Assembly (NCBI GenBank): GCA_905233385.1
Contig: CAJOEH010000018.1
Coordinates: 1 to 64,000, forward strand
Origin: an uncultured Oscillospiraceae bacterium
Lineage (GTDB): Bacteria > Bacillota > Clostridia > Oscillospirales > Oscillospiraceae
Direction of reading: 5' to 3'
DNA length: 64,000 nucleotides
Both the position numbers and the translations under genes were made by a program. How positions within the stretch are numbered: position 1 is the stretch's first letter; every line of letters starts with the position of its first letter. Shown in pieces: positions 5,255 through 50,506 of this stretch. The notes beneath the pieces are model-generated. The model was not told the DNA's origin, searched no databases, and saw only the letters and a list, made by a program, of their open reading frames with translations.

Positions 5255-6820
5255 TTAAATCATGCTGGCTTCCCAGCAGTCGGGCGCTTGCAGGCCCAGC
5301 AGGGTCGCGACCGTCGGCGCGACGTTCGCGAGGCCGAAATGACCTTCCTTTAACGTGTATCTCGTGTCCTTGTCGTAGACGATGAAGGGGACGGGATTGA
5401 GACTGTGGGCGGTGCGGATCGAGGTCTTGCCCTTCTTGGTCTCCGTCATCTGGTCGGCGTTGCCGTGGTCGGCGGTGACCAGGACGGTGTATCCGAGGCG
5501 GTCGGCCGCTTCCAGAATGCGGCGCACGCTCTCGTCCACGCATTCCATCGCGGTGACGACGGCCTCCATCACGCCGGTGTGGCCGACCATGTCGCCGTTC
5601 GGGAAGTTGCAGCGCAGGAAGTCGTATTTCTTAGACTCCATCGCCGCGATCATGTGATCGGTGATCTCCTTGGACTTCATCGCGGGCGCGAGCTCGAAGG
5701 GGATGACGTCCGAGGGGATCTCCTCGTAGGTCTCCAGACTTTCGTCGACCTTGCCGGAGCGGTTGCCGTTCCAGAAGTAGGTCACGTGGCCGTATTTCTG
5801 CGTCTCGGACAGGGCGTATTCGCGGATGCCGTGGGCGCAGAGGAGCTCGGTCAGCGTGTTCTTGATGACGGGCGGCTGCACGAGATAGTGCGAGGGAATG
5901 TGCAGGTCGCCGTCGTATTCGAGCATACCCGCGAAATGCACGCCGGTGTAGTCGCCGCGGTCGAACTTGTCGAAGTCCTTGCGGTCGAAGGCGAGGGAGA
6001 TCTCCTGCGCGCGGTCGCCGCGGAAGTTATAGAGCACGACGCTGTCGCCGTTCGCGATCTTCGCAACGGGCTCGCCGTTCTCCGCAATCACGAAGCCGGG
6101 CAGATCCTGGTCGATGCAGCCGAGCTCCGCGCGGTAGGTCTCGATCGCCGCTTTCGCGGAGGGGAACCGGCGGCCGACGCCCTGCACGTGGATCTTCCAG
6201 CCGGCCTCGACCATCGCCCAGTTGGCCTCGTAGCGGTCCATCGTGATCTGCATTCTGCCGCCGCCGGAGGCGATGCGGTAGTCGCAGCCGTCCGTACGGA
6301 GCTCCGCGAGCACGTCCTCTAACTGCTGCACGTATTCCAGCGCCGAGGTGGCGGGCACGTCGCGGCCGTCCAGCAGGATGTGGCAGTAGACCTTCTTCAC
6401 GCCCTCTTTCTTCGCCTGGCGGAGCAGGGCGATCAGGTGGCTGATGTTGGAATGCACGTTGCCGTCCGAGAGCAGACCGAGGAAGTGGAACGCCCTGCCG
6501 CCGTCCACGCAGTTGGAGACGAGCTCCTTCCACGTTTCAGATGCGAACAGCGCGCCGTTCTCGATCGACTCGCCGACGAGCTTCGCGCCCTGGGAATAGA
6601 CCTGTCCGCAGCCGAGCGCGTTGTGGCCGACTTCGGAGTTGCCCATGTCGTCATCGCTGGGCAGACCGACCGCCGTGCCGTGCGCCTTCAGCCAGGTGTA
6701 GGGGCAGGTATCGAAAAGACGGTCAAGCGTGGGAGTCTTCGCGACCGCAACGGCGTCGCCGCTGCCGCCGTCGCCCTTGCCGACGCCGTCCATGATCACA
6801 AGTACAACGGGTTTCTTCAC
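5255..6820 (-). CDS. gpmI: 2,3-bisphosphoglycerate-independent phosphoglycerate mutase
   Basis: ORF 521 aa; VLVIMDGVG...NSEVGHNALGCGQVY...VTADHGNADQM...AHSLNPVPFI. Confidence 0.93.
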   Translation of the reverse strand: MKKPVVLVIMDGVGKGDGGSGDAVAVAKTPTLDRLFDTCPYTWLKAHGTAVGLPSDDDMGNSEVGHNALGCGQVYSQGAKLVGESIENGALFASETWKELVSNCVDGGRAFHFLGLLSDGNVHSNISHLIALLRQAKKEGVKKVYCHILLDGRDVPATSALEYVQQLEDVLAELRTDGCDYRIASGGGRMQITMDRYEANWAMVEAGWKIHVQGVGRRFPSAKAAIETYRAELGCIDQDLPGFVIAENGEPVAKIANGDSVVLYNFRGDRAQEISLAFDRKDFDKFDRGDYTGVHFAGMLEYDGDLHIPSHYLVQPPVIKNTLTELLCAHGIREYALSETQKYGHVTYFWNGNRSGKVDESLETYEEIPSDVIPFELAPAMKSKEITDHMIAAMESKKYDFLRCNFPNGDMVGHTGVMEAVVTAMECVDESVRRILEAADRLGYTVLVTADHGNADQMTETKKGKTSIRTAHSLNPVPFIVYDKDTRYTLKEGHFGLANVAPTVATLLGLQAPDCWEASMI

Positions 6821-43233: not shown

Positions 43234-43983
43234 ATGGCAGTCGTATCCATGAAAGCCCTGCTCGAGGCAGGCGTCCACTTCGGTCACCAGACCAGAAGAT
43301 GGAACCCCAAAATGGCTCCCTACATCTACACGGAGCGCAACGGTATCTACATCATTGACCTGCAGAAAACCGTGAAGAAGATCGAAGAGGCTTACAGCTT
43401 CATCCGCGAGCTCGCCGCCAACGGCGAGAACGTCCTGTTCGTCGGCACCAAGAAGCAGGCGCAGGACGCCATCAAGGAAGAGGCCGAGCGCGTCGATCAG
43501 TACTTCGTCAATGCCCGCTGGCTCGGCGGCATGATGACCAACTTCAAGACCATGCGTACCCGTATCGACCGTCTGGCGCAGCTGCGCAAGATGCAGGAGG
43601 ACGGCACCTTCGCGATGCTTCCCAAGAAGGAAGTCATCAAGCTCGAAGGCGAGATCGAGAAGCTCGAGAAGTATCTCGGCGGCGTGAAGTCCATGAAGAA
43701 GCTCCCCGGCGCTCTGTTCATCGTCGACCCGCGCAAGGAACGCAACGCGATCGCCGAAGCGCGCAAGCTGAACATCCCCATCGTCGCGATCGTTGACACC
43801 AACTGCGATCCGGACGAGATCGACTACGTCATCCCCGGCAACGACGACGCGATCCGCGCGATCCGCCTGATCGTCGCCACCATGGCGAACGCCGTGCAGG
43901 AAGGCCGTCAGGGCGAGTCCCTCGCGGAGGCCCCTGTCGAGGCGGCGGAAGCCACCGCTGAGGAAGCTTCGGTCGAGGAGTAA
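43234..43983 (+). CDS. rpsB: 30S ribosomal protein S2
   Basis: [46 protein letters not shown]. Confidence 0.96.
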
Positions 43984-44056
43984 TCCACCCGAACATAAAT
44001 GCCCGCCGGAACGACGGGCATTTTCCAAAGATAAAATTTTAGGAGGAAATACTACT

Positions 44057-44977
44057 ATGGCATTTACTGCTGCTGATGTAAAGACCCTGCGCGAAATGAC
44101 CAACGTCGGCATGATGGACTGCAAGAAGGCCCTCGTGGAGACCGACGGCGATATGGACAAGGCGGTCGAGTGGCTCCGTGAGAAGGGCCTCGCTAAGGCT
44201 GCCAAGAAGGCCGGCCGCATCGCGGCCGAAGGCATGGCTTACGCCGCCGTCGTCGACGGCATCGGCGTGATGGTCGAAGTCAACTGCGAGACCGACTTCT
44301 GCGCGAAGAGCGCGCCGTTCGTCGCCCTCGTCAAGGACGTCGCCGAGATGGTCGCGAAGAACGACCCGAAGGACGTCGACGCCCTGATGAACTGCAAGTA
44401 CCCCGGCAGAGACCTGACTTTGGCCGAGATCATGCCCGAGAAGGTCATGGCGATCGGCGAGAACCTGCAGATCCGCCGCTTCGTCCGCTTCCCCGAGAAC
44501 ACCAGCGTCGCCTACGTGCACGGCGGCGGCGTGCGTTCCGTCCTGGTCAACCTGATCGTCGAGGGCGGCATCGACGCCACCCAGATCGGCAAGGATATCG
44601 CGATGCAGATCGCGGCTCTGTCCCCGCGTTTCTGGGACAAGAGCGACGTGACCGAGGAAGTCCTTGAAGAAGAGAAGAAGATCCTCGTCGCCCAGATGGA
44701 CAACGACGAGAAGATGGCGAACAAGCCCCTCCAGGTCAAGGAGAAGATCGCCGCCGGCAAGCTCAACAAGTTCTACGAAGAGAACTGCCTGCTCCAGCAG
44801 GCGTTCGTCAAGGACGGCTCCGTCTCCGTCGAGCAGTATATGAACGCTGCCGCGAAGGCGCTCGGCGGTTCCGTGAAGTTCGTCGATGCAGTCCGCTATG
44901 AGAAGGGCGAAGGCATCGAGAAGAAGCAGGAAGACTTCGCCGCGGAAGTCGCGAAGCAGATGAACATGGGCAAGTAA
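44057..44977 (+). CDS. tsf: Translation elongation factor Ts
   Basis: MAFTAADVKTLREMTNVGMMDCKKALVETDGDMDKAVEWLREKG. Confidence 0.96.
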   Translation: MAFTAADVKTLREMTNVGMMDCKKALVETDGDMDKAVEWLREKGLAKAAKKAGRIAAEGMAYAAVVDGIGVMVEVNCETDFCAKSAPFVALVKDVAEMVAKNDPKDVDALMNCKYPGRDLTLAEIMPEKVMAIGENLQIRRFVRFPENTSVAYVHGGGVRSVLVNLIVEGGIDATQIGKDIAMQIAALSPRFWDKSDVTEEVLEEEKKILVAQMDNDEKMANKPLQVKEKIAAGKLNKFYEENCLLQQAFVKDGSVSVEQYMNAAAKALGGSVKFVDAVRYEKGEGIEKKQEDFAAEVAKQMNMGK

Positions 44978-44993
44978 TTTTGCTGATTAAAAC

Positions 44994-45025
44994 GGCAAGT
45001 GAGCGAACGCTCACTTGCCGTTTTT
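44994..45025 (+). terminator. Intrinsic terminator of rpsB-tsf
   Basis: AAAACGGCAAGTGAGCG aac GCTCACTTGCCGTTTTTT. Confidence 0.8.
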
Positions 45026-45062
45026 TGCTTTCTTTCATTGCGCAACAGAAAACCATCAGGTT

Positions 45063-45100
45063 TGTCATTGCGAGGTCGCGGAGCGACCGTGGCAATCTGT
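45063..45100. repeat. TGTCATTGC/GGCAATCTGT dispersed repeat unit
   Basis: TGTCATTGCGAGGTCGCggaGCGACCGTGGCAATCTGT. Confidence 0.65.
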
Positions 45101-45189
45101 CCCTCACAGATTTAGGAAACTGCATTATCCATAATGTTTTTCCATTAGCACGTAAGGAACGGCCTGTGTGCCGTTCCGGAAATCGGAAA

Positions 45190-45412
45190 CTATTTTGCTT
45201 CTTCCGGCTCCACGAGCTCCCATTGGAACATTTCCCTGAAATCCTCGAAGCATTCGGGGCAGATCCACGTGTACTTGTCGTCTGCGGTCACGTAGCCTTC
45301 GTGCAGATCGCCCTCGTATTCGCTGAACGTCGCCCAGCAAAAGGCGCAGTGGTCGTGATCCCACGTCTCAGACCAGCGAAAATTTTAATCTCCAGTCGTT
45401 CGGTTCAATCAT
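45190..45412 (-). pseudogene. Putative zinc-knuckle immunity-like gene, frameshifted copy 1
   Basis: MIEPNDWRL... then frame shift; downstream WSETWDHDHCAFCWATFSEYEGDLHEGYVTADDKYTWICPECFEDFREMFQWELVEPEEAK; length 223 nt (not a multiple of 3). Confidence 0.65.
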
Positions 45413-45455
45413 TTTTGTGCGTCTCCTTCGTTGCCAAAGCTCAGCGGGCTGAAGA

Positions 45456-45698
45456 TCAATAGACCGTAACGTCTTCTATGTTACCAAGAATATCCTGCAA
45501 ATACTCGCCGCCGATTTTTGCGGAAGCAATCAATTGCTCTATGGAATCAAAGGCAACGCTTGTTTGATAGAACTGACAGAGGTGGATTGTTTGCTTGTCG
45601 CCCTCGAAAGAATATGTAATGGAGTATTCTGTGCCGCGGTAGGAGAATTCAATCTCCCGCCCGGTTTGTATGGAATACTTCAACGTATCAAGCGTCAT
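45456..45698 (-). CDS. 80-aa putative immunity protein
   Basis: RBS AAGGAG; MTLDTLKYSIQTGREIEFSYRGTEYSITYSFEGDKQTIHLCQFYQTSVAFDSIEQLIASAKIGGEYLQDILGNIEDVTVY; lies in the toxin operon. Confidence 0.6.
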   Translation of the reverse strand: MTLDTLKYSIQTGREIEFSYRGTEYSITYSFEGDKQTIHLCQFYQTSVAFDSIEQLIASAKIGGEYLQDILGNIEDVTVY

Positions 45699-45750
45699 AA
45701 TTATCTCCTTTATGGGCATCTCGAGTTTAGCCAATCCCCATTTTCCCGGT

Positions 45751-45777
45751 CGTAGGGAGGCGTCCCCTGACGCCTCC
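45751..45777. repeat. Partial copy of the CGTAGGGAGGC dispersed repeat
   Basis: CGTAGGGAGGCGTCCCCTGACGCCTCC. Confidence 0.7.
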
Positions 45778-45825
45778 GCTGCCGTGCCCATCGGACGCCC
45801 GTGGCAAGGCAACGCAGGCCGCTCC

Positions 45826-46067
45826 TTATTTGCTTTTTTGGTTTTCTTCCGGCTCCACGAGCTCCCATTGGAACATTTCCTTGAAATCCTCGAAGCATTC
45901 GGGGCAGATCCACGTGTACTTATCGTCAGCGGTCACGTAGCCTTCGTGCAGATCGCCCTCGTATTCGCTGAACGTCGCCCAGCAAAAGGCGCAGTGGTCG
46001 TGATCCCACGTCTCAGACCAGCGAAAATTTCTTGTCCTTGCAGACGCCAGTCGTTTTTTTCAATCAT
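45826..46067 (-). pseudogene. Putative zinc-knuckle immunity-like gene, copy 2, with apparent 1-nt deletion
   Basis: MIEKNDWRLQGQE | frameshift | WSETWDHDHCAFCWATFSEYEGDLHEGYVTADDKYTWICPECFEDFKEMFQWELVEPEENQKSK; ATG overlaps the toxin stop (ATGA); 242 nt. Confidence 0.65.
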
Positions 46068-47035
46068 TTCAAAATAGCTCCTTCTTGATTAAACGCTTTT
46101 GGTTCATAGCTTCCATCAGGAAAAATTCGATATGAAGGGGTTTCTCCTCTGATTCCATAATCCCAATGAGGTCCTACAGACGGCGGATGATTGAGATCCG
46201 GTCTCAACCACTCTCTAGTTTCTGGATTAAACCAATTGCCGGCGTTTGATCCGATTTCACCTCTTCCGCGCCATTCATATCCATCTCCCGGGCATTTTGT
46301 CGGATCCCAGCCCGGGAAATCCGGGAACCCTCGCTGACCGCCTCCACCGTTTCCCGCAGAGCCGCCGCCTTTCATTACGAAGCCCTGAAAGTATTTTACA
46401 GTGGGGTTGCCGTAACTTTTTTCCTGCGTAAGGTTGTTCGTCTTTGCATAGTCGATCACGATCAGCTTGCCATCCATTTCGTCAAAAGGATCGCCATAGC
46501 AAATGACTGCTTCCGGCTTAATTCGGCGCAGCAGCTCCTTGTAGCCGGCAAGAAAGAGCTGCTTTTCCGTTCGCATGCCGACGGTGGATACGGCAACGAC
46601 GCTGCCTTCGTCAATTCCGTCGAAGCTGAACCAGAACGTGTCAGGCTCTCCCCACACCAGCGAGGGAATGACGCGCAGCCCTTTGGACTGGAAATAGGCG
46701 CCGCACCATCGGCTTTTGAACACCTGATGAATCTGCACGGCGACGGGCATTTCCGTATACATGCTGAATTGCGGCGACAGAACCGCGCGGTATTCCTTCA
46801 GCTTTTCAATACGCGGCTCCGGGTCCTTCCAGAGGACTTCGAATTTGTAATCGTCCAAAAAGAAATGGACGACTTTTTCCGTCTCTTCCTCGCTCAGCCT
46901 ATCATAACCGATTAGTTCCAAATTATCAAGGGAGAGCTTCGTTTTTCTGATGATGGGCATTTCAAACGTGCCGTCGCAACACTTTTCAAACAAATACCTC
47001 CAATTGAATTGTGACGCTGTTTGTATTGTACACAT
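46064..47035 (-). CDS. DUF4417-like N-terminal domain fused to a C-terminal polymorphic-toxin-like domain (Ntox37-like)
   Basis: N-part ...VVHFFLDDYKFEVLWKDPEPRIEKLKEYRAVLSPQFSMYTEMPVAVQIHQVFKSRWCGAYFQSKGLRVIPSLVWGEPDTFWFSFDGI...; Gly-rich linker; C-part GYEWRGRGEIGSNAGNWFNPETREWLRPDLNHPPSVGPHWDYGIRGETPSYRIFPDGSYEPK. Start codon uncertain. Confidence 0.7.
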   Translation of the reverse strand: MCTIQTASQFNWRYLFEKCCDGTFEMPIIRKTKLSLDNLELIGYDRLSEEETEKVVHFFLDDYKFEVLWKDPEPRIEKLKEYRAVLSPQFSMYTEMPVAVQIHQVFKSRWCGAYFQSKGLRVIPSLVWGEPDTFWFSFDGIDEGSVVAVSTVGMRTEKQLFLAGYKELLRRIKPEAVICYGDPFDEMDGKLIVIDYAKTNNLTQEKSYGNPTVKYFQGFVMKGGGSAGNGGGGQRGFPDFPGWDPTKCPGDGYEWRGRGEIGSNAGNWFNPETREWLRPDLNHPPSVGPHWDYGIRGETPSYRIFPDGSYEPKAFNQEGAILK

Positions 47036-47136
47036 TCCGTGTAGAGGATTCTGTCGAAAAGTGCCGGCTCCGCATTTTTTTCAAAAATGCTTCCTTCTCA
47101 AGAAAAAACCGGAAGGGCAGTCCTTCCGGTTTGCGT

Positions 47137-47460
47137 CTATTGCAATATGAGAAAGATCGCCAGGGTCATGACGGTCGAGACGGCGTCTTCCGTGCCCTCG
47201 GATAAGAGAAGCAGCATAATGAGCAAAAGCAGCAGATCGCCGCTGTCCATGCCGGGCAGAAGCTTCTCCAGAAACGGGATCGGCAGAGGCGGCCTCGGCG
47301 GCGGGGGCGGCGCGGGGATCGGCGGCGGCATCGGAGGAGGCGGAGGAATCGGCGGCTCCGGCGCGGGCATCGTCGGCGGAACGGGCGGCGCGGGCTTCCG
47401 ATCGGGTATATCCTGCCGACGGTACTGCCCGTTGCCGGTCGGCATGTAGCGGTGATACAC
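47137..47460 (-). CDS. Proline-rich protein with C-terminal hydrophobic segments
   Basis: PPVPPTMPAPEPPIPPPPPMPPPIPAPPPPPRPP followed by LLLLLIMLLLLSEGTEDAVSTVMTLAIFLIL. Confidence 0.6.
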   Translation of the reverse strand: MYHRYMPTGNGQYRRQDIPDRKPAPPVPPTMPAPEPPIPPPPPMPPPIPAPPPPPRPPLPIPFLEKLLPGMDSGDLLLLLIMLLLLSEGTEDAVSTVMTLAIFLILQ

Positions 47461-47462
47461 GG

Positions 47463-47813
47463 TCAGCCGCCTCCTTTCCCCGGAAGTTTTCCGTAATTGC
47501 GCAGGGCGAAGCCCGCCATATGGGAAACCTTCGCGATCTGCAGGGCGCGGTCGATTTTGCTGCGCCGTTCCGGCCGCAGATAGGGCTTGATCGCCAGCAG
47601 GAGCGCCTCCTGCTTTCCGTCGGACTGCCGCGCCTGCTGCATCATCCCGAAGATCGCCTTCGCCATGCCGTCGTCCGGCGGCGGCGGGGCGGGCGGCGCG
47701 GCGGACGCTTCTTCCGGCGGCTGGAGGCCGAAAGACTGCGCGAGGGACAGAATCTGCGCCATGCTGTCCGGGTCGTTCAGAATCTTTTGCAGCTGTTCCT
47801 CCAGACCGTCCAT
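47463..47813 (-). CDS. Uncharacterised small soluble protein
   Basis: MDGLEEQLQKILNDPDSMAQILSLAQSFGLQPPEEASAAPPAPP...; tightly spaced with flanking minus-strand genes. Confidence 0.6.
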   Translation of the reverse strand: MDGLEEQLQKILNDPDSMAQILSLAQSFGLQPPEEASAAPPAPPPPDDGMAKAIFGMMQQARQSDGKQEALLLAIKPYLRPERRSKIDRALQIAKVSHMAGFALRNYGKLPGKGGG

Positions 47814-47821
47814 CGCAGCGC

Positions 47822-48046
47822 CTACCTCCCGCCGAACTTTCTGCGCAGGTCGTCCGCCTCCCGCGACTGCATGACGGTGCGCAAAAGCGCCTGCGCCGTC
47901 GCGGTATCGCCGTTTTGATAGGCTTCAGCGGCGCGGCGGGCGTTCTCGCCGCCGTCTCGCTGCATCAGGGCGATCAGCCGCTGCCCCTCCGGAGAAGCGG
48001 CGAGGTCTTTCAGCTGCTGCGCGGAAATTTGAGAATTCTTCTCCAC
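47822..48046 (-). CDS. Uncharacterised small helical protein
   Basis: MEKNSQISAQQLKDLAASPEGQRLIALMQRDGGENARRAAEAYQNGDTATAQALLRTVMQSREADDLRRKFGGR. Confidence 0.6.
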   Translation of the reverse strand: MEKNSQISAQQLKDLAASPEGQRLIALMQRDGGENARRAAEAYQNGDTATAQALLRTVMQSREADDLRRKFGGR

Positions 48047-48114
48047 GGAGATTGCCTCCCTTTTCGGAATCTGCTATAATATATATATGTTTCCGAACGC
48101 GAAAGGGTGACACG

Positions 48115-48585
48115 ATGAAAATTCTCGTTCTTTCCGACTCCCATCGGGAGGAAGCCAACCTGCTGCGCGCGGCAGAACTGGAAAAGCCGGACGCGGTCAT
48201 CCATCTGGGCGACCATGCCTCGGACGCGGAGGTCCTGCTGCGGGCGTATCCGCGCCTGCCGGTGTGCAGGGTGCGCGGCAACTGCGACCGCTTTGAGACC
48301 GACGTGCAGGACGAAGCCGTGATCGAATGGGAGGGCGTGAAGATCCTCGTGACGCACGGGCACCGCTACCACGTCAAGTCGGGCTTGCTGACCCTGTGCT
48401 ACGCCGCCATTCAGGCGGGCGCGCAGATCGCTCTGTTCGGACATACGCATATGCCGTACTGCGAGGAATCGGACGGCCTTTGGCTGCTCAATCCCGGCGC
48501 GTGCGGCAGACTCTTCCCGAGCTACGGGATCATAGAAATCAAAAACGGCGCCGTACAGTGCCGCGTGATGGAGGAAGCGTTATGA
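48115..48585 (+). CDS. YfcE/MJ0936 family metallophosphodiesterase
   Basis: MKILVLSDSHREEANLL...HLGDHASDAEV...RGNCDR...LVTHGHRY...FGHTHMP. Confidence 0.88.
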   Translation: MKILVLSDSHREEANLLRAAELEKPDAVIHLGDHASDAEVLLRAYPRLPVCRVRGNCDRFETDVQDEAVIEWEGVKILVTHGHRYHVKSGLLTLCYAAIQAGAQIALFGHTHMPYCEESDGLWLLNPGACGRLFPSYGIIEIKNGAVQCRVMEEAL

Positions 48586-49349
48586 TTTTAGCTGTGGATA
48601 TCGGCAACACCAACGTGGTGCTCGGCTGTATCGAGGACGGAAAGATCCTCTTTGAAGCCCGCATGGCGACCGACCGCCTGAAAACCTCGGATCAGTACTG
48701 CGTGGAGCTGAAGAATATGCTCTCGCTCTACGACGTCTCTCCGAAGGACGTCAGCGGCAGCATCGTCGCCTCGGTCGTGCCGCCGGTGCTCAATTCCGTC
48801 AAGACCGCGATCCGCAAGCTGACCGGCGGCAGCTGCCTCGTGGTCGGCCCGGGGATCAAAACGGGCATGAATATCCGCATGGACAACCCGCTCGAGGTCG
48901 GCAGCGATCTGATCGTCGCCTCCGTCGCCGCGATCGCGGAATACGGCGCGCCCCTGCTCTTAGTGGACATGGGCACGGCGACGACCGTGACCGCCGTGGA
49001 CGCGGACGGCGCCTTCATCGGCGGCTGCATCTGCCCCGGCGTGAAGATCTCGATGGAGGCGCTGACCGAGCGAACGGCGCAGCTTCCCGGCATCAGCCTG
49101 GACGAGCCGGAGCGCGCCATCGGCAAGAACACGCGCGACAGCATGCGCAGCGGCATCATGTTCGGCGCGGCGGCCATGCTGGACGGCCTGCTCGACCGCA
49201 TGGAGGCGGAGATGGGCGGCGAGGTCAAGGCGATCGCCACCGGCGGCCTGTCCAAATTCGTGATCCCGCTGTGCCGCCGCAAGCTGATCTACGACCGCAG
49301 CCTGATGCTCAAGGGACTGTGGCTCATCTACCAACGGAACGTCAAATAG
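48582..49349 (+). CDS. coaX: Type III pantothenate kinase
   Basis: MILAVDIGNTNVVLGCIEDGK...LLVDMGTATTVTAVD...GGCICPGVKIS. Confidence 0.93.
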   Translation: MILAVDIGNTNVVLGCIEDGKILFEARMATDRLKTSDQYCVELKNMLSLYDVSPKDVSGSIVASVVPPVLNSVKTAIRKLTGGSCLVVGPGIKTGMNIRMDNPLEVGSDLIVASVAAIAEYGAPLLLVDMGTATTVTAVDADGAFIGGCICPGVKISMEALTERTAQLPGISLDEPERAIGKNTRDSMRSGIMFGAAAMLDGLLDRMEAEMGGEVKAIATGGLSKFVIPLCRRKLIYDRSLMLKGLWLIYQRNVK

Positions 49350-49515
49350 CGGCCAGCAGCGCCGCCAGCATGACGAAGAAGCCCGCGCCGATGCCGAGGG
49401 TCACGACGCTCTCGACGGCGGCGGTGACGGCCTGATAACGGTTCTCCTTTCGGTCGGATTCCGCCTGCGCGGCGGCTGCGGGAAGATAGGGGACCAGATC
49501 GATCATATTGCGCAT
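49342..49515 (-). CDS. 57-aa small membrane protein
   Basis: MRNMIDLVPYLPAAAAQAESDRKENRYQAVTAAVESVVTLGIGAGFFVMLAALLAAI; RBS AAGGAG. Confidence 0.45.
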   Translation of the reverse strand: MRNMIDLVPYLPAAAAQAESDRKENRYQAVTAAVESVVTLGIGAGFFVMLAALLAAI

Positions 49516-49594
49516 TTTGTATCGCTCCTTTGTTGCTTGATACCCGGAGTATACTGCTATTACAGACCAATAAATCGGACTGGAGGAAGAAAAA

Positions 49595-50506
49595 ATGAAA
49601 GAATTTGAATTTGAGTCCAAAGGCGCGGGCATGATCCACGCCTACCGCTGGGAGCCGGAAGGGGAGCCGGTCGCCATCGTGCAGCTCGTGCACGGCATCG
49701 CCGAGTACATGCCCCGCTATGACGATTTCGCGCAGTTCCTTGCGTCTAAGGGCGCACTGGTCGTCGCGGAGGATCATATGGGACACGGCAAGTCGCACGG
49801 CAGCGGCGCGGACCTCTACTTCGCCGGCGGCTGGGAGGCCGCGGTGGAGGACACCTACACCCTCCAGCGCATGACGCGCGAAGAATATCCCGACCTGCCG
49901 TTCTTCCTGTTCGGCCACAGCATGGGCTCCTTCATGGCGCGGACGATGCTCTACCGCTATCCCGACGCGGGCTTGCGCGGCGCGATCATCTGCGGCACGG
50001 CGTGGCAGCCGGGCGCGGTGCTGTCGGCGGGCAGAGCCGTGTGCGCGATGGAGTGCAAACGGCTCGGCGAAAAGAACGTCAGCAAGCTGGTCACCAACCT
50101 GATGTTCGGCGCGTACAATAAGAAATTCGGCAAAACGCCGCGCACGCCGAACGACTGGATCTGCAGCAACCAGGAGGTCGTCGACCGCTACACCGCCGAT
50201 CCCCTGTGCGGCGGCGCGCCGACCCTCGGCCTGTCGCGCGACATGCTCGCGGGCATCGCGATGAACCAGAAAAAGAAGAACCTCGACGCGATGCCGAAGG
50301 ACCTGCCCGTCCTGCTGATCGCCGGCAAGAGCGACCCCGTCGGCGCGATGGGCAAGGGCGTGGAAAAGACGTACAAGAAGTTCAAGGACGCCGGAATGCG
50401 CGACGTGACCCTGAAGCTCTACGACGGCCGGCATGAGATCCACAACGAGGACAATCACGCCGAGGTCTATGCCGACGTTTGGAATTTTATCGAGAAACGG
50501 CTCTAA
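49595..50506 (+). CDS. Alpha/beta hydrolase (monoacylglycerol lipase-like)
   Basis: QLVHGIAEYMPRYDDFAQFL...EDHMGHGKS...LFGHSMGSFMAR. Confidence 0.87.
   Translation: MKEFEFESKGAGMIHAYRWEPEGEPVAIVQLVHGIAEYMPRYDDFAQFLASKGALVVAEDHMGHGKSHGSGADLYFAGGWEAAVEDTYTLQRMTREEYPDLPFFLFGHSMGSFMARTMLYRYPDAGLRGAIICGTAWQPGAVLSAGRAVCAMECKRLGEKNVSKLVTNLMFGAYNKKFGKTPRTPNDWICSNQEVVDRYTADPLCGGAPTLGLSRDMLAGIAMNQKKKNLDAMPKDLPVLLIAGKSDPVGAMGKGVEKTYKKFKDAGMRDVTLKLYDGRHEIHNEDNHAEVYADVWNFIEKRL

Follow-up and report, generated by a model that had tools for sequence, protein, structure and literature searches.

The locus studied in the window (the whole stretch of 64,000 nucleotides that was analysed, from a gut-type Oscillospiraceae genome) probably belongs, in degenerate form, to a class of polymorphic toxin-immunity systems that has not been described before and in which DUF4417 is the constant N-terminal module. 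Sequence comparison shows that the class combines a DUF4417 carrier with a glycine-rich hinge and a C-terminal end that can be exchanged; there are at least eight types of end, and several correspond to named toxin families and come with matched immunity genes. The copy in the window has lost its native reading frame, and both copies of its cognate immunity gene are broken. Toxicity of the members is predicted, and Ntox37, the family to which the window's end is closest, is itself only a predicted toxin. The features of the locus are collected in the table below.

Table. Features of the DUF4417-toxin locus in the window (positions of the forward strand)
Feature	Position	Strand	Remark
Open frame: DUF4417, glycine-rich hinge, Ntox37-like end	46064..47035	-	323 codons counted from the upstream ATG
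Native Shine-Dalgarno GGAGG (47001-46997) and TTG start (46989-46987)	46987..47001	-	now out of frame
DUF4417 domain, aa 21-196	46448..46975	-	Pfam PF14386, E=7.2e-59; model pLDDT ~95
Glycine-rich hinge GGGSAGNGGGGQRG	46328..46369	-	counterpart of the relatives' KGGGSA/KGMGSA
Ntox37-like toxin domain, aa 242-308	46112..46312	-	Pfam PF15535, E=4.8e-5, 24.3 bits
Cognate WDHDHC-type immunity gene, broken	45826..46067	-	start and body in different frames
Intact 80-aa gene, orphan immunity-like	45456..45698	-	family fused to or following HxNPHDH toxins
Second broken WDHDHC-type copy	45190..45412	-	body repeats that of the first copy; break in the same region
Whole cassette, 2.1 kb	45029..47136		present in the window, absent from the near relative G198

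The coordinates 46064-47035 proved exact: the minus strand is open there for 323 codons. The genome has the DUF4417-Ntox37 gene in a single copy. The Pfam scan of its product gave DUF4417 a score of 198.8 bits against a curated cut-off of 28.9, covering profile positions 4-182 of 183; the preliminary description, which had read the N-terminal domain as DUF4417 and had noted a glycine-rich hinge between the domains, was correct on both points. Its assignment of the C-terminal domain to polymorphic toxin type 37 held as far as the match to the PF15535 profile is concerned, and the score was borderline to the curated cut-off (24.3 bits by hmmscan, under the cut-off of 27.8, versus 28.5 bits in a six-frame genome search). 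Five relatives, which represent two kinds of carrier, all share residues E53, R34 and H68-W-D70 of the C-terminal end. In the AlphaFold2 model of the window protein, DUF4417 was predicted with confidence, the hinge (aa 205-239) was disordered, and the C-terminal domain was mostly beta and of moderate confidence. No WXG100, LXG, RHS or MuF domain was detected in the window protein by the Pfam scan, in agreement with the earlier observation on the first three, and MuF was also absent in the PHROGs scan.

The C-terminal ends were exchanged among relatives. A match was found in 27 of 201 genomes of the same family, several of which had a DUF4417 about 50% identical to that of the window, with longer frames and other C-terminal ends. 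The scan of named genomes yielded 77 loci among the best 80 matches, nearly all from Clostridia and mostly from Oscillospiraceae, and in these DUF4417 was followed by a KGGGSA or KGMGSA hinge and then by one of at least eight end types; the HxNPHDH end accounted for 52 of the 77, which, as the best 80 matches of one scan, are a biased sample. Four of the end types had a Pfam name: a barnase-like Ribonuclease (E=1.1e-9), Ntox50 (E=3.3e-26), an AHH nuclease (E=6e-17) and Ntox37 (E=4.2e-5). The closest carrier, L065, was 84% identical to the window copy over DUF4417 and bore a different toxin, of the LKHMF type, with which the window's end gave no match; this LKHMF end was 54% identical to that of L067 (E=3e-36), and the genes following the two were related as well (E=2e-22). 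Conversely, an Ntox37 end 56% identical to that of the window sat on an unrelated 598-aa carrier (L016), accompanied by the same antidote family. The survey of DUF4417 proteins for variable ends, proposed in the preliminary description, thus returned at least eight types on a conserved DUF4417, and the ends were exchanged rather than kept in all homologues as part of the same fold. The proposal of a DUF4417 protein with a polymorphic-toxin end is well supported by the swapped ends, the matched immunity genes and the occurrence of Ntox37 on L016, and the C-terminal end of the window protein lies outside DUF4417. Grouping of the Ntox37 and HxNPHDH ends into one superfamily was rejected, as their profiles aligned over the glycine hinge only, and so was an Ntox24-like nature of the HxNPHDH end (weak match, probability 42%). 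In Pseudoflavonifractor sp. MSJ-37 (G064), tandem DUF4417 genes were near-identical except for diverged HxNPHDH ends, and a reverse-transcriptase-like gene (L031:13465-14394) adjoined this tandem DUF4417-toxin array.

In several types, the gene behind the exchanged end matched it in kind. Barstar (E=1.8e-8) followed the barnase end in L066, Imm11 (E=1.4e-22) followed an AHH end, the type that L083 represents, and a small, zinc-ribbon-like WDHDHC...CxxC protein, which belongs to no Pfam family, was encoded behind Ntox37 in L075 and L016. Barnase and barstar are a proven toxin-inhibitor pair, so the toxin reading of the class does not rest on Ntox37 alone. In the commonest type (L084-L139, e.g., the L110 junction), an antidote-like domain was fused in frame behind the HxNPHDH toxin, and a stand-alone version of the same antidote-like gene was found behind the end in L080. 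A Shine-Dalgarno match of 4 nt or more preceded an in-frame ATG at the junction in 43 of 47 loci, and one of 5 nt or more did so in 32 of 47, counts that use the best ATG per locus and somewhat favour the junction, whereas the other in-frame ATGs of the same genes had such matches in 84 and 20 cases out of 539, respectively. We infer from these counts that the antidote may also be made alone from the internal junction ATG of the HxNPHDH genes.

In the window, the start of the WDHDHC-type gene overlapped the toxin stop codon (ATGA), and the start and the body lay in different frames. When the intact L075 protein was aligned to this first copy by tblastn, residues 1-15 fell in frame -2 and residues 30-85 in frame -1 (67%, E=9e-31). 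The bodies of the two broken copies (45199-45385 and 45844-46030) were 98% identical over 187 nt and differed at their 5' ends. Between them lay the intact 80-aa gene, which matched the antidote-like domain of the HxNPHDH toxins (hhalign probability 98%, E=1.6e-14), had 37% pairwise identity with the gene behind the L080 toxin, and is read here as a putative orphan immunity gene. A blastn comparison to G198 (L234) aligned window positions 43273-45028 at 94% and 47137-50000 at 84%, with these flanks only 92 nt apart in the relative; the whole cassette has therefore been gained or lost recently. The cassette was placed between tsf and chromosomal genes, and no phage genes were recognised among the neighbouring frames that were read.

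The toxin gene of the window was also altered at its start. In the relatives, ATG, TTG or GTG came shortly after a Shine-Dalgarno sequence and was followed by (T)SEEFRxxPMFLRNQF. With L065 as the reference, 43 nt were absent from the window just downstream of the native TTG (~46979), a loss that puts this TTG out of frame with DUF4417. The open frame could be reached only from the ATG at 47035, which precedes the native ribosome site, or from an in-frame TTG (46993-46991) located only 3 nt past GGAGG, and the conserved N-terminus SEEFRxxPMFLRNQF was lost from the window copy. The earlier statement of an intact 323-codon gene therefore stands for the frame, which is open from 46064 to 47035, but not for the native start, and the gene is probably a decayed copy rather than an intact one. 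The joint loss of the toxin start and the antidote fits decay, with assembly errors of the metagenome-assembled genome (MAG) as the alternative. As a separate observation, the window contained three frame-shifting deletions of about 37-47 nt, in the toxin start and in the two antidote copies, each just behind a start codon; they could stem from decay, recombination or an assembly error of the MAG.

Upstream of most chromosomal DUF4417-toxin genes, a hairpin such as AAGGACTTGTTCCTT was observed about 30-50 nt before the start (e.g., L104:7863-7937). Its arms varied by locus, it often adjoined the Shine-Dalgarno sequence, and covariation was slight. Control by SOS (LexA) was considered and rejected, as GAACN4GTTC stood upstream in 5 of 74 loci, mostly at the site of the variable-arm hairpin, and reads as a hairpin instead of an operator. 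Masking of the Shine-Dalgarno sequence by a 5' hairpin was also set aside: pairing of this sequence was 0.68 versus 0.53 in other genes of the same loci (p=3e-5), but shuffled upstream sequences gave nearly the same value (0.65). A co-oriented tRNA gene, of several kinds, was located about 0.5 kb or less upstream of the DUF4417 gene in 17 of 39 scanned loci (L088, L089, L094-L096, L100, L105, L106, L118, L120, L123, L124, L129, L131, L133, L137 and L139). In a few loci the end of the tRNA recurred behind the DUF4417 gene, over 36 nt in L123. An explanation by integration at the 3' ends of tRNA genes was not retained, as no more than about 5 of the 18 loci had end-repeats that exceeded chance.

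In phages, DUF4417 was found in 479 records (one tblastn search), largely in a different arrangement. Among 80 IMG/VR loci, DUF4417 was rarely long-tailed and often had an N-terminal extension, and a gene starting with MGGRG(A/S)SSG often directly followed or overlapped it. The next gene was GG-headed for 40 of 72 tail-less viral DUF4417 genes versus none of the 114 tailed ones in all sets, counts that are not independent since some loci occur twice in the sets; only 68 of 2226 frames overall began in this way in the same loci. Within the sample, the fused form and the split form thus excluded each other. The GG-headed phage neighbours had variable ends, which included a papain-fold glutamine deamidase (E=5e-18), an ADP-ribosyltransferase (E=2e-16), a CdiA_C-like end (E=2e-4, below the cut-off) and an HExxH-bearing, metallopeptidase-like end. 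In mycobacteriophage Blue7 the pair corresponds to genes 1 and 2, with gene 2 annotated as a peptidase. In Lactococcus proPhi6 and Streptococcus Javan394, DUF4417 lay immediately ahead of the terminase/portal block, at its upstream edge, and the portal gene adjoined DUF4417 in L010 and L012. On a Ligilactobacillus plasmid, the gene next in order, overlapping DUF4417, was annotated as polymorphic toxin type 24; the DUF4417 frame itself (L051, about 6001-6399 of NZ_LT604075.1), which overlaps the start of that toxin, was omitted from the gene table.

The fused form would be the split pair joined into one gene, with the MGGRG head becoming the hinge, and GGGSAGNGGGGQRG of the window would correspond to the MGGRGxSSG head with which the separate genes of the phages begin. 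By sequence, DUF4417-GGxG looks like a phage-derived effector module that was fused and domesticated on Clostridia chromosomes, and the survey makes DUF4417 a putative phage-derived partner of GGRG-headed effectors; the carrier or trafficking role suggested in the preliminary description is a hypothesis. The 'nuclease' label of phrog_940 presumably concerns its ParB half and was given no weight for DUF4417. ParB-CTPase-DUF4417 fusions have been described as enriched in phages and prophages (PMC12704722).

The model of DUF4417 alone (pLDDT 94.7) showed a compact TIM-barrel-like fold. A PDB fold search with this model returned no match below E 0.001; the weak matches were mostly TIM-barrel enzymes, including tRNA-guanine transglycosylase (TM 0.43-0.49). 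The first BFVD match outside the family was a mycobacteriophage queuine tRNA-ribosyltransferase (E=3.2e-3, probability 1.00, TM 0.53). These model comparisons weakly place the fold nearest to the queuine/DpdA-type transglycosylases of phages, which we treat as a lead. Of 11 fusion-bearing genomes, one had EssC above the cut-off, and in the window's genome EssC scored below it. Type VII secretion (T7SS) was discarded as the delivery route, given that EssC was mostly absent; the window protein has no WXG or LXG N-terminal domain. PADLOC gave no match for the window protein, a full HxNPHDH fusion or the immunity protein. The toxins may be packaged by phages or use a different exporter, or they may act only inside the cell. 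In the proposed mechanism, a working member would be an antibacterial toxin, and the downstream immunity protein would keep the producer safe. DUF4417 would serve as a phage-derived adaptor that places the toxin, by bringing it into phage particles or into a different exporter, or by binding nucleic acid, and the Ntox37-type end would be a predicted enzyme acting in the recipient or infected cell. In the window strain, the decay probably affected toxin and antidote jointly, and an immunity gene without a partner remained.

Other explanations were weighed for the window gene and for the class as a whole. It is very improbable that the C-terminal 90 residues are a non-toxin accessory part of a DUF4417 protein. 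The hmmscan score for Ntox37 just below the Pfam cut-off would agree with such a role, but the E, R and HxD signature is invariant in five relatives on two carrier kinds, the closest carrier has a different end, and immunity-type remnants lie directly behind the window's end. A live toxin, translated from ATG 47035 or TTG 46993 and neutralised by the product of the intact 80-aa gene, appears unlikely as well. All 323 codons are open, the DUF4417 and Ntox37 signatures are intact, and the TTG in the right frame sits 3 nt behind GGAGG; against this, the SEEFRxxPMFLRNQF segment is missing with the native start out of frame, two of two cognate antidote copies are broken, and the family of the 80-aa gene goes with a different toxin type.

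For the class, one tentative and more specific mechanism is that the effectors are packaged by phages: DUF4417 would be a DNA- or head-associated loader, the GGRG protein would enter the phage particle and leave it together with the DNA, in line with a proposal made for MuF toxins, and the chromosomal fusions would be domesticated copies riding induced prophages. The position of DUF4417 right ahead of the terminase/portal genes in proPhi6 and Javan394 and beside the portal gene in L010 and L012, the pair forming genes 1 and 2 of Blue7, the phage-enriched fusions to ParB-CTPase (PMC12704722), the ADP-ribosyltransferase and glutamine deamidase ends, and EssC above the cut-off in just 1 of 11 fusion-bearing genomes all point in this direction, but the chromosomal fusions lie outside recognisable prophages and no phage is known to have the fused form. 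We consider it improbable that the fusion acts as an intracellular guard, i.e., an abortive-infection or addiction device in which DUF4417 senses a phage component and frees an antidote-restrained toxin in the producer. Such a role would accord with the absence of a secretion signal or known exporter, with DUF4417 being widespread among phages, which encode it themselves, and with cassettes that stand alone with their antidote and have a nested antidote start in the commonest type. It is opposed by the lack of a PADLOC match, by inspected neighbours that are metabolic rather than defence genes, and by C-terminal swapping and an orphan immunity gene, which are typical of toxins exchanged between cells. 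Returning to the polymorphic toxin-immunity class, it is conceivable, though we would not yet favour it, that DUF4417 with its GGRG effector is an unrecognised, widespread effector-delivery module in which DUF4417 is the loader, shared by mycobacteriophages and phages of Firmicutes. Clostridia would have fused and domesticated this module into polymorphic toxins, and the commonest fused type would make its antidote from an in-frame start nested within the toxin gene.

As far as we have seen, the parts are of known kinds, and the carrier class and the two-gene phage form are undescribed in the open literature; no description of DUF4417 toxin carriers was found in the range of the search, 5.39 million open-access papers, of which three name DUF4417 and one of these also PF14386. 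The analysis gives a context to a phage domain present in 479 phage records (one search) and extends the polymorphic toxins by a class of carriers, found in gut Clostridia, that belongs to neither the T7SS nor the MuF type. It offers barnase-barstar, AHH-Imm11 and Ntox37-WDHDHC as candidate toxin-antidote pairs, and the split phage form raises the testable question of whether DUF4417 and its GGRG partner are packaged and injected.

The class shares with polymorphic toxin systems the conserved N-terminal part, the swapped C-terminal ends, the cognate immunity gene downstream and the occurrence of an end on other carriers. It differs from T7SS toxins in that the window protein has no WXG or LXG N-terminal domain and that EssC is absent from most of the fusion-bearing genomes. 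Zhang et al. (2012, PMC3482391) described Ntox37 as a predicted toxin whose E, [KR] and Hx[DH] residues are conserved, on carriers of the T2SS/T7SS type and with Imm32 as its antidote; DUF4417 is unmentioned there. The window locus resembles those systems in the E, [KR] and Hx[DH] residues and in the immunity gene behind the toxin, whereas the carrier here is DUF4417 and the antidote a WDHDHC protein outside the Pfam families. The ParB-CTPase fusions (PMC12704722) contain the same DUF4417 domain, but ParB is fused N-terminally, there is no toxin end, and toxins are unmentioned in that paper. The phage queuine tRNA-ribosyltransferase, DpdA-like and TGT proteins are the nearest non-self fold matches of the DUF4417 model, a likeness derived from models; the DUF4417 fold is shorter, with identity of about 10-13% and no PDB match below E 0.001. 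The MuF toxins of temperate phages (Jamet et al. 2017, PMC5576092) are alike in having a phage-derived constant N-terminal part near packaging genes, a variable toxin end and a small downstream immunity gene in Firmicutes. In contrast to them, the DUF4417 class has no MuF domain, DUF4417 lies before the terminase whereas MuF lies behind the portal, and the class includes a split DUF4417 and GGRG form next to a fused form that is chromosomal and outside prophages.
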